NCBI GenBank assembly: GCA_017510405.1
Contig: JAFWNG010000013.1
Coordinates: 124,001 to 188,000, forward strand
DNA: 64,000 nt
Direction of reading: 5' to 3'
DNA from: Solobacterium sp.
Lineage (GTDB): Bacteria; Bacillota_I; Bacilli_A; Erysipelotrichales; Erysipelotrichaceae
The position numbers and the translations under genes were made by a program. The notes under the pieces are model-generated. The model was not told where the DNA came from and made no database searches. It saw only the letters and a list, made by a program, of their open reading frames with translations. Of the stretch, positions 39,004 to 42,009 are shown one piece after another (the stretch's first letter is position 1; each line of letters begins with the position of its first letter).

Positions 39004-39535
39004 GAAACGGCGCTTTGCGGTTCCGGACATGTATGTGCCCGGGATCCGGGACCTCGATCCCGAAAAACTGAAAGAGAAGGGGATCCGTCTTCTTCTCGTG
39101 GACTATGACAATACCCTGATGGAATCGACCGATGCGGGCAAAACGCACGACAGCATGAAAGCGCTGGAAAGACTGCGGGACAGCGGGATCATTCCGGTGA
39201 TCCTGTCCAACAACTTTGCCTCTCACTGTCATGATTATGCCGTGACGTGCGGTGTGGACTACCGTTCGTTCTCCATGAAGCCGCTTCCGTTTACCTACCG
39301 GGAAGTCATGAAAACATACGGATGCACGCCGGCGGAGACCGCAGCGATCGGCGATCAGCTGCTCACCGATATGCTCGGCGCATATCTGGCCGGCATATAC
39401 CGGATCCTGAGTGATCCGCTGTCCGAGAAAGACAATCTGTCCGGTACCGTCTCACGGTGGATGGAAAACCGGATCTTCGCGCGCTGGAAACAGACGCGGA
39501 ATATACAGCGAGGTAATTATTATGACCATCTGTAA
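38996..39535 (+). CDS. yqeG: YqeG family HAD-type phosphatase
   Basis: A 179-residue HAD superfamily IIIA protein. The nucleophile motif is DYDNTLMES at about residues 37-45, with Ser in VILSNNFA and Asp in AIGDQLLTDMLGA. Its substrate is not firmly known; it is almost always next to yqeH in Bacillota, as here. It overlaps parC by 8 bases and yqeH by 14 bases. Confidence 0.92.
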   Translation: MAEKRRFAVPDMYVPGIRDLDPEKLKEKGIRLLLVDYDNTLMESTDAGKTHDSMKALERLRDSGIIPVILSNNFASHCHDYAVTCGVDYRSFSMKPLPFTYREVMKTYGCTPAETAAIGDQLLTDMLGAYLAGIYRILSDPLSEKDNLSGTVSRWMENRIFARWKQTRNIQRGNYYDHL

Positions 39536-40571
39536 GGGATGCGGCGCTGTCCTGCAGAGTACTGACAGCACCAGAGCCGGCTATACGCCGAAGGAAGGCA
39601 GTGAGTACTGTCAGAGATGTTTCCGTCTGATCCATTATGACGATCCTGTTCTGACCCTCGATACCGGGATCGATCAGGACAGTGTCCTGCAGCGAATTGC
39701 GGATATGGACTGCATGATCCTGTGGGTCGCCGATCTGTTTGACTTTGAAGCAGGGATCATACCCGGTCTCAACCGTCTTGTCGGCGATAAGGAGATCGTG
39801 CTGTGCGCCAGCAAACGCGATATTCTGCCGCAGACTCTGAACCATGAAAAGACCGCCCGCTTTGTCTTCGCCAGACTGAAAGAAGCAGGCATCCGGATCA
39901 GCGGTCTGGTGCTTACGAGCCGCGAGGACCCGGAATGTGCCGACGAAGTGCTCAATGCTTGCCGCCTGGCATGCCAGGGGAGGCCGATCGCCGTCATGGG
40001 ACGGGCGAACTCCGGCAAGAGCACGCTGATCAACCATCTGATGAAAAAGAAAGTCCTGACGGAGAGCCGGTATCCCGGAACGACCCTGGATTTCAATACG
40101 ATGGAGATCGAAGGCATGACGTTTATCGATACGCCCGGCATTGAAGTGAGAGGAAGTCTTCTCACACGCATTCAGGAGGCGGATTACAAGACCGTGATCC
40201 CGTCCGGACGCATCAAGCCGCAGATCTACCAGCTGCGCGGCGATCAGAGTTTTGCGGTCGGCGGACTGGCACGGATCGATGTTCTCGGCTGCGACGGTGC
40301 GACATGCGTGTTCTATGTCAGCGGCCGGCTGAAGATCCATCGGTCCAAAGTCAGCGGCGCAGACGCTCTGTGGGAGAAACACTACGGGGAATTGCTGAAG
40401 CCGGTACCGGTCTCTCCGGAAACAGATGTATACAGCGACCGCAAGGAATTCGAAAAAATGGATGTCGTGATCGACGGTCTCGGATGGGTATGCCTGTCCG
40501 GACAGATCAGCTCGGTGCGGGTAAAAGTACCGCGCGGAGTCAGTGTGACATTCAGAAAGGCTATGGTATAA
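39522..40571 (+). CDS. yqeH: Ribosome biogenesis GTPase YqeH
   Basis: A 349-residue circularly permuted GTPase needed for 30S assembly. An N-terminal zinc finger has Cys4, Cys7, Cys30 and Cys33. The G motifs follow in permuted order: G4 (ASKRDILPQ), then G1 (GRANSGKST) near residues 163-171, then G3 (DTPGIE). A C-terminal treble-clef-like/NRIP-type RNA-binding region follows. ATG 39522 has GAGG at 39509-39512; the open frame upstream lies in yqeG. The cluster yqeG-yqeH-yhbY-nadD-yqeK-rsfS is conserved in Bacillota. Confidence 0.94.
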   Translation: MTICKGCGAVLQSTDSTRAGYTPKEGSEYCQRCFRLIHYDDPVLTLDTGIDQDSVLQRIADMDCMILWVADLFDFEAGIIPGLNRLVGDKEIVLCASKRDILPQTLNHEKTARFVFARLKEAGIRISGLVLTSREDPECADEVLNACRLACQGRPIAVMGRANSGKSTLINHLMKKKVLTESRYPGTTLDFNTMEIEGMTFIDTPGIEVRGSLLTRIQEADYKTVIPSGRIKPQIYQLRGDQSFAVGGLARIDVLGCDGATCVFYVSGRLKIHRSKVSGADALWEKHYGELLKPVPVSPETDVYSDRKEFEKMDVVIDGLGWVCLSGQISSVRVKVPRGVSVTFRKAMV

Positions 40572-40575
40572 AAAA

Positions 40576-40863
40576 ATGCTTACAGGAAAACAGAAAAGCT
40601 ATCTGAGAAGTCTTGCGCAGACAGAACGTCCGCTGTTTCAGATCGGCAAGGAATCCATTACCGAGAATCTGATCAATACCGTGGACGCCGCGCTGCGCAA
40701 GCGTGAGCTGATCAAGGTGTCGGTACTGAAGAACGCTCCGGATGATATTAAGGAAGCAGCTTTTGATCTTGCCCGGCTGACCGGCAGCGAACTCGTTCAG
40801 GTAATCGGCCGCAATATCGTGCTGTACCGGCGCTCAAAGGAACACCGGATCATTCTGCCATGA
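40576..40863 (+). CDS. yhbY: RNA-binding CRM domain protein YhbY
   Basis: A 95-residue CRM-domain protein that associates with pre-50S ribosomes. The family start LTGKQKSYLRSLAQTERPLFQIGK and the C-terminal VIGRNIVLYRRSKE are present. The ribosome binding site is weak (AAAGG about 14 bases upstream), so translation may be coupled to yqeH five bases away. It overlaps the next gene by 4 bases. Confidence 0.92.
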   Translation: MLTGKQKSYLRSLAQTERPLFQIGKESITENLINTVDAALRKRELIKVSVLKNAPDDIKEAAFDLARLTGSELVQVIGRNIVLYRRSKEHRIILP

Positions 40864-41672
40864 GGGCAGTCGTATCCGCTTCCTTTGATCCGATCACGCA
40901 GAAAGAACTGGAATGGATCGTTTCCTGCCGCAGGATGAAGGGGTGTCAGACCCTGTATGTGCATATGCCGGAAGAAGGGATCCTGTCGTATTCCCTGCGC
41001 AGAAAACTCCTGAAACGCGCACTGGCGCCGTACCGGCACATTCACGTCACTGAAAAAGTCTCTCCGGAAGACACGGTAATGTATCTTCCGGATGGATCCG
41101 GGGATGGAGAGGCGGTGCGCAGCGGCATCGTGCGGCTTGCTGCAAGAGGCACGCGGAATATGCTGTGGCATGAAACGGAGTTTCTGGAACTGTGTGTACA
41201 GAGCCGCTGCACAGAGCAGAGGGCTTCGCATTCCGTTTCAGTGGCGAAGACGGCGGAGTATTTCGCGGCACGCTATGGCCTTGACCGGGAAAGAATGCGG
41301 ATCGCGGGATATCTTCATGACATTACAAAAAAACAGAGCAATGAAGAAAATCTGCGGGTGATGAATTTCTGGTATCCGGAGTTTGCGGCGGAGAATTACA
41401 AAGTATGGCATTCGTTTACGGCAGAAGTATTTCTGCGTCAGGAGATGTGCTGTTATGACCGCATCATACGCAGTGCCGTGCGCCATCATACACTGGGAGA
41501 CGGAATGAGTGATCACGACCGGATCCTGTATATAGCGGATAAGATCGAACCGACCCGTCCGTATCCGATCGATACGGAATGGAAGATCGCTGAGCGGAGT
41601 CTGAAAGAAGCCGCGGAATTCATATTTGAAGAAACCAGACAGTTTATTGATACGGAGGAAAAAAATGTCTGA
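40860..41672 (+). CDS. Fusion of degenerate NadD and YqeK HD hydrolase
   Basis: A 270-residue protein that fills the place of two genes, nadD and yqeK. Residues 116-270 are a complete YqeK HD domain (diadenosine tetraphosphate hydrolase), with His124, His153-Asp154 (GYLHDITK), His184, His209-His210 and Asp227 as metal ligands. Residues 1-110 resemble NadD (ASFDPIT near the start, LRRKLLKRAL), but the nucleotidyltransferase HxGH motif is replaced (TQKE), the length is about half of the 190-200 residues expected, and the C-terminal S-T-x-x-R motif is missing. The NadD part therefore cannot make NaAD. It might be a remnant or bind a nucleotide. It is translationally coupled to yhbY, and the downstream rsfS start lies within its last codons. 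Confidence 0.82.
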   Translation: MRAVVSASFDPITQKELEWIVSCRRMKGCQTLYVHMPEEGILSYSLRRKLLKRALAPYRHIHVTEKVSPEDTVMYLPDGSGDGEAVRSGIVRLAARGTRNMLWHETEFLELCVQSRCTEQRASHSVSVAKTAEYFAARYGLDRERMRIAGYLHDITKKQSNEENLRVMNFWYPEFAAENYKVWHSFTAEVFLRQEMCCYDRIIRSAVRHHTLGDGMSDHDRILYIADKIEPTRPYPIDTEWKIAERSLKEAAEFIFEETRQFIDTEEKNV

Positions 41673-42009
41673 ATTATTAGATCTGGTACGGAAGACGCTT
41701 TCGGAAAAGCAGGCCAAAAATATCGTTACCATAGATATGCATGCAGTCAGTCCGTTTACTGATTACTTCGTGATCGCTACGGCAGGAAGTCTGCGCCAGG
41801 CAAACGCGCTCTGCGAATATGTGGAGGACGCAGCGTTTAAGAACGGCTACGACGTACGCATGCGGGAAGGAGAAAGAGAGAGCGACTGGATGCTTGTGGA
41901 TCTCAATGATGTCATCGTTCATATCTTTACGGAAGATGCCCGGCGCATGTACCGTCTGGAAGCTCTGTGGGCAGATCAGCCGCAGGAAACATACATCGAG
42001 GAAGAATAA
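41665..42009 (+). CDS. rsfS: Ribosomal silencing factor RsfS
   Basis: A 114-residue protein (Iojap/RsfS family) that binds L14 on the 50S subunit and prevents subunit joining when nutrients are low. The core VSPFTDYFVIATAGSLRQANAL and the VDLNDVIVHIF motif are conserved. ATG 41665 follows GGAGG at 41654-41658; the frame opens further upstream without support. It overlaps the HD gene by 8 bases and ends the parE operon. Confidence 0.94.
   Translation: MSELLDLVRKTLSEKQAKNIVTIDMHAVSPFTDYFVIATAGSLRQANALCEYVEDAAFKNGYDVRMREGERESDWMLVDLNDVIVHIFTEDARRMYRLEALWADQPQETYIEEE

Follow-up and report, generated by a model that had tools for sequence, protein, structure and literature searches.

The site at which nadD and yqeK normally sit was occupied, in the genome of this gut Solobacterium sp., by a single open reading frame (ORF) of 270 amino acids, which raises the question of what became of NadD and what its remains do for the YqeK part to which they are joined. 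The preliminary description had reported one 270-residue gene in the usual place of nadD and yqeK, and the ORF and its neighbors confirmed this. The gene lies downstream of yqeG and yqeH. Its features in the window (the whole 64,000-nucleotide stretch that was analyzed) are as follows.

39522 to 40571, forward strand: yqeH, the upstream synteny marker, in a gene order shared with relatives.
40576 to 40863, forward strand: yhbY, the upstream neighbor, whose TGA stop codon overlaps the start codon (ATG) of the fusion gene.
40860 to 41672, forward strand: the collapsed-NadD/YqeK fusion gene (270 amino acids), recognized by its ORF, its TIGR00488 match, and the same short form in relatives.
40860 to 41195, forward strand: the collapsed NadD domain (residues 1-112), a half-Rossmann unit plus the NadD C-terminal segment, from hhalign, AlphaFold2, and VIA-align.
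40884 to 40907, forward strand: FDPITQKE (residues 9-16), the remains of the FDPxHxGH nucleotidyltransferase motif, with both histidines replaced.
41052 to 41105, forward strand: the internal-deletion junction (residues 65-82), where about 65 NadD residues are gone (YTI-DT helix and GxD, W, and R blocks).
41106 to 41204, forward strand: residues 83-115, comprising the preserved C-terminal part of NadD (GEAVRSG in place of SSTxVRxG) and the linker helix, from profile alignments.
41196 to 41663, forward strand: the YqeK HD-domain hydrolase (residues 113-268), with matches to TIGR00488 (90.5 bits), PF01966 (52.2 bits), and YqeK structures in the PDB.
41229 to 41540, forward strand: the di-metal ligands H124 (41229), H153-D154 (41316-41321), H184 (41409), H210 (41487), and D227 (41538), aligned to 8wmy and 2ogi.
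41665 to 42009, forward strand: rsfS, the downstream neighbor, whose start overlaps the stop of the fusion gene.

About 30 more genomes of the genus carried the same short form, as did two genomes that are single contigs (G092 and G097); an assembly error, a frameshift, or chance was therefore ruled out as its origin. A search of genome contigs for related loci returned one relative, Solobacterium sp. RGIG7085 from sheep rumen.

The C-terminal 155 or so residues belonged to the YqeK family, as their TIGR00488 score was above the curated cut-off of 70.15 bits. YqeK hydrolyzes Ap4A as a homodimer and has a di-metal site (PMC8177086), and the metal ligands of the Streptococcus pyogenes enzyme are His29, His58, Asp59, His91, His117, and Asp135 (PMC11857287). 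H124, H153, D154, H184, H210, and D227 correspond to these in the same order, so that the complete set of HD ligands (six of six) that had been reported for the YqeK part was borne out. The YqeK part is probably an active Ap4A hydrolase. It shared the HD fold and the six ligands with stand-alone YqeK (TIGR00488/COG1713; PDB 8wmy, 2ogi, 8jja, and 2o08), but differed from it in carrying an N-terminal half-NadD of about 110 amino acids. The NadD-YqeK fusion model NF005519 matched the gene at 98.7 bits over profile positions 185-345 only, and its cut-off of 315 bits was not reached.

Residues 1-110 gave no Pfam or NCBIfam match up to an E-value of 10, including TIGR00482 (NadD), and their homology to NadD was visible solely by profile-profile comparison. 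In hhalign, the N-terminal domains of 30 genus members matched the full-length NadDs of intact fusions in this family with Prob 98.5 and E 3.4e-15; the alignment covered both ends, and about 65 residues in the middle of the template had no counterpart. The other collapsed genera aligned more strongly to the intact fused NadDs (E 3.8e-26). The retained parts were FDP, the first two helices, the PYRH block ahead of strand 3, and the C-terminal segment running from VRxG through a helix to YLE, and the lost parts (YTI-DT helix, GxD strand, W block, and R block) constitute the second Rossmann half. Because V-R-x-G, the helix that follows it, and the LYLE-like linker could still be aligned, the loss was an internal deletion. 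Compared with NadD (NaMN adenylyltransferase, TIGR00482), the domain thus has the first three strands, two helices, the C-terminal helix, and FDP in common, but is devoid of HxGH, SST, and the second Rossmann half. In genome G313, the fusion profile matched one short ORF twice, at 2-71 and at 140-348.

The predicted structure agreed with the alignments. AlphaFold2, run on a two-sequence input, gave a beta-alpha-beta-alpha-beta arrangement with a pLDDT of 67-83 over residues 1-80, within a model whose mean pLDDT was 57.9 and in which the junction was modelled poorly; the model was worse when residues 1-117 were folded by themselves (mean pLDDT 51.5). In VIA-align, all 50 matches listed were nucleotidyltransferases, either CoaD or NadD (Z 7.2-9.8). 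A Z-score near 8 is weak by itself, and it is the agreement of the fold with the profile result that carries weight. Structural comparison of residues 1-110 therefore identified a Rossmann-like half-domain that matches nucleotidyltransferases, and not a complete Rossmann fold with GxD, W, and R blocks. The earlier claim that NadD has collapsed here was upheld by the profile alignment, the fold, the synteny, the intact fusions of relatives, and a replacement NadD elsewhere in the genome.

The N-terminal domain might instead be a degenerate CoaD (PPAT), given that FDPIT looks CoaD-like and that the top VIA-align match was a PPAT (Z 9.8). However, the gene order and the fusion are identical to those of intact NadD-YqeK relatives, with both ends of NadD alignable at the yqeH-yhbY-rsfS locus, and the C-terminal motif of NadD, from VRxG to LYLE, is retained. 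Intermediates exist in G313 and G103, the replacement of histidine by threonine or serine occurred in other collapsed lineages as well, and CoaD-like genes are present elsewhere in these genomes. The catalytic motif of CoaD is (T/H)xGH, whereas T-Q-K-E has no final histidine. A CoaD origin was rejected on the grounds of synteny, the C-terminal NadD motif, and the intermediates, and is highly improbable.

The HxGH position indeed read TQKE (residues 13-16, within F9-D10-P11-I12-T13-Q14-K15-E16), as had been noted earlier. The C-terminal S-T-x-x-R motif, which the preliminary description had given as lacking, was lost in part: in DGEAVRSG, the SST has become DGE, but the arginine and the following glycine are kept, together with VRxG and the C-terminal helix. 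Among relatives, the first histidine of HxGH was missing in 49/49 collapsed sequences and was threonine or serine in 44 of them (locus L020 was entered as threonine from its sequence); in the intact sequences, the position was histidine in 60/63 and threonine in 3/63. The FDP loop beside the phosphate site was kept in nearly all collapsed sequences, and genus g64 has also lost FDP. Threonine and serine are common helix N-cap residues, and their appearance here would represent a structural substitution once catalysis was released. By known chemistry, a NadD part with this sequence cannot be an active enzyme of the NadD family. The three intact sequences with threonine were full-length TxxH fusions (L046, L052, and L054) from genus g6 of the sister family, and possibly represent either a first step of the change or a working TxxH variant.

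The distribution of these forms was surveyed in 316 genomes of the order, mostly draft assemblies. Intact NadD-YqeK fusions were present in the sister family (about 366 amino acids) and in many genera of the family of the window, so the full-length fusion does exist in relatives. The short form was found in the genus of the window (g1), in g27, g32, g53, g54, g59, g64, g66, g70, g75, and part of g67, as well as in g60 and g26, which were assigned from ORF length and profile range alone. Genera g34 and g51 harbored a YqeK of about 190 amino acids whose N terminus is still the C-terminal helix of NadD (one hhalign comparison, Prob 92.6, E 4.5e-7), and g62 had a YqeK of the same length that has shed the half-domain. 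The NadD part therefore measured about 180, 105, and 27 residues in the successive forms. Synteny with yqeH/yhbY and rsfS was found at nearly every locus; where a neighbor was missing (g67, g70, g62, g59, and g64), the locus was incomplete or rsfS was undetected. The exception was G143, with separate nadD and yqeK genes at the site; it was excluded because the contig, which carries GTPase and LexA-like genes, is probably foreign.

In a tree of concatenated YqeK, YqeH, YhbY, and RsfS, from which G092 and G097 (profile matches) were left out, short forms fell on several branches among intact ones, with eight changes under parsimony, at least three of which were forced by well-supported branches. 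Grouping all non-intact forms in one clade was rejected by the AU test (p 6.8e-7), in which the group was chosen by its trait and the tree has long branches; a single ancient collapse was thereby rejected. The collapse recurs on several branches of this family. Within g67, intact fusions (L065 and L122-L124) were nested among collapsed ones, with weak support inside the genus, a pattern that may reflect repeated loss at a late stage or the regain of NadD.

The genome of the window contained a separate full-length NadD above the family cut-off (contig C33, 252769-253332), so that a second nadD is indeed present. It follows pncB and is near nadE (C33, 254400). This replacement NadD (L001 in G000) reads SAAH (GGAFNPPSAAH), and its relatives in the genus TxAH, not HxGH. 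With g1 left aside, 64/82 non-intact genomes of the family had a further match to the fusion profile (E <= 1e-8, tallied by hand), versus 6/109 intact ones (Fisher p 6e-27), and these second matches covered the NadD part in the 38 genomes inspected closely. Several BLAST queries, a B. subtilis NadD sequence among them, were used to find standalone NadDs. The fused NadDs formed one clade, and all standalone NadDs fell outside it and differed strongly among genera, which makes them unlike fission products; an origin by fission of the fusion was accordingly not supported. In L137 (G141, contig C20, genus g32), the replacement NadD shares one frame of more than 700 amino acids with a NadE-like glutamine-dependent synthetase, and in L135 (G315, contig C7, genus g75), the standalone NadD runs into a nitroreductase-like domain in one 419-amino-acid frame.

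NadE was above its cut-off in G000 and G270. No NadD and no NadE were detected above cut-off in eight genomes with collapsed or reduced forms (G003, G012, G033, G134, G135, G255, G260, and G289), an absence that is probable and not proven because several of these genomes are drafts. The remnant was read directly in at least four of the eight, namely, G003 (L033), G033 (L020), G255 (L089), and G289 (L076); G134 and G135 contained ORFs of 256 and 261 amino acids, G260 was frameshifted or helix-only, and no YqeK match was found in G012. In these eight genomes, PF01467 matched mainly CoaD-, RibF-, and TmcAL-sized genes. Such cells may depend on imported NAD, and the remnant in them cannot serve NAD synthesis. 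Because YqeK is kept where NadD and NadE are undetectable, its main job there is not the proofreading of NadD, and is consistent with hydrolysis of Ap4A or other nucleotides.

These genomes also bear on whether the half-domain is a docking adapter that tethers YqeK to the standalone NadD, such that proofreading continues in trans. Proofreading has been documented for fused and clustered nadD-yqeK (PMC9426524), and the remnant is usually accompanied by a second NadD, but the standalone NadDs are very unlike between genera, and the remnant is kept in G003, G033, G255, and G289, in which no NadD was found. This reading is quite improbable.

The remnant was under purifying selection. In five close pairs from three genera (Nei-Gojobori), its dN/dS was 0.16-0.37, compared with 0.05-0.27 for the HD part, and its pooled differences were nonsynonymous at 202/1245 and synonymous at 188/381 (p 3e-36). 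Mean identity within g1 was 0.357 for the remnant and 0.493 for the HD part; the corresponding values in intact fusions were 0.424 for NadD and 0.386 for HD. The remnant is constrained but relaxed. The suggestion of the preliminary description that the NadD part is a remnant was thus supported, except that it is not freely decaying. Its other suggestion was a regulatory domain for the hydrolase that still senses a nucleotide; the ligand would be ATP, NaMN, or Ap4A, and the remnant would control YqeK. Purifying selection and the near-universal FDP loop would fit this proposal, which was nevertheless not supported, because HxGH, SST, and the entire half of the pocket formed by GxD, W, and R are absent, the first histidine was lost in every collapsed sequence (mostly to threonine or serine), and the remnant persists where NadD and NadE are undetected. 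Nucleotide sensing is therefore improbable.

The best explanation, to which we assign a probability of about 0.7, is that the dead NadD half descends from an intact NadD-YqeK fusion and is retained as a structural N-terminal domain of the Ap4A hydrolase. In such a scenario, NaMN adenylylation would have been taken over by a second, unrelated NadD, or lost, thus freeing the fused NadD from catalysis. The active site would then have changed (histidine to threonine or serine, histidine to glutamate, and SST to DEE or DGE), and the second Rossmann half would have been deleted, leaving beta1-alpha1-beta2-alpha2-beta3 and the NadD C-terminal helix that leads into YqeK. The half-domain may serve as a structural piece of the homodimeric hydrolase, by helping it to fold, stabilizing it, or positioning the HD dimer; the C-terminal helix is presumably the part most tightly linked to YqeK. 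Against such a role, most YqeKs of Firmicutes have no NadD part and function nonetheless, and the half-domain has been dropped in g34, g51, and g62.

The main rival to a structural role is passive decay, in which an idle half-domain is being lost and selection acts only on in-frame folding without aggregation. The faster evolution of the remnant than of the HD part in g1 makes slow decay under weak constraint possible, and the same reading would account for the genera that already have YqeK with a short helix or less (g34, g51, and g62) and for the loss of FDP in g64. On the other hand, the size of the remnant is nearly constant on several branches of the tree (92-134 residues from FDP to HD in collapsed forms outside g1), the dN/dS values are low, and the remnant is kept in all analyzed loci of g1 at a mean identity of about 36%. 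Passive decay is rather unlikely. For a retained structural domain, the recurrence would carry a further implication, which we offer tentatively and consider somewhat doubtful: that half-NadDs repeatedly and independently became a non-catalytic domain that YqeK needs, by a convergent half-Rossmann reduction uncoupled from NAD synthesis.

The mycoplasma NadD-YqeK fusion (JCVI-Syn3A_0380, NF005519) has a full-length, active NadD half, which transposon data suggest to be essential, and its YqeK hydrolyzes wrong NaAD analogues and 8-oxo-GTP (PMC9426524). The gene in the window has the same domain order, ancestry, and intact YqeK part, but about 65 residues are missing from its NadD half, no catalytic motif is left there, and a different gene supplies NadD. 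No account of a collapsed NadD-YqeK was found in the literature searched, which leaves out most subscription journals. Intact fusions, half-domains, and helix-only forms occur side by side in one family and at one conserved locus, and constitute a replicated natural experiment on the fate of a fused enzyme domain after its catalytic job passes elsewhere, one that predicts which portion of NadD is welded to YqeK. Annotators of these bacteria should note that a gene called a "NadD-YqeK fusion" may supply no NadD. When the collapsed-domain profile was compared with 392 genomes of the phylum, the whole-length matches among those listed were confined to short ORFs of this family; elsewhere, again among the matches listed, it reached no further than the first 60-90 positions, which is what ordinary NadD or CoaD would give.
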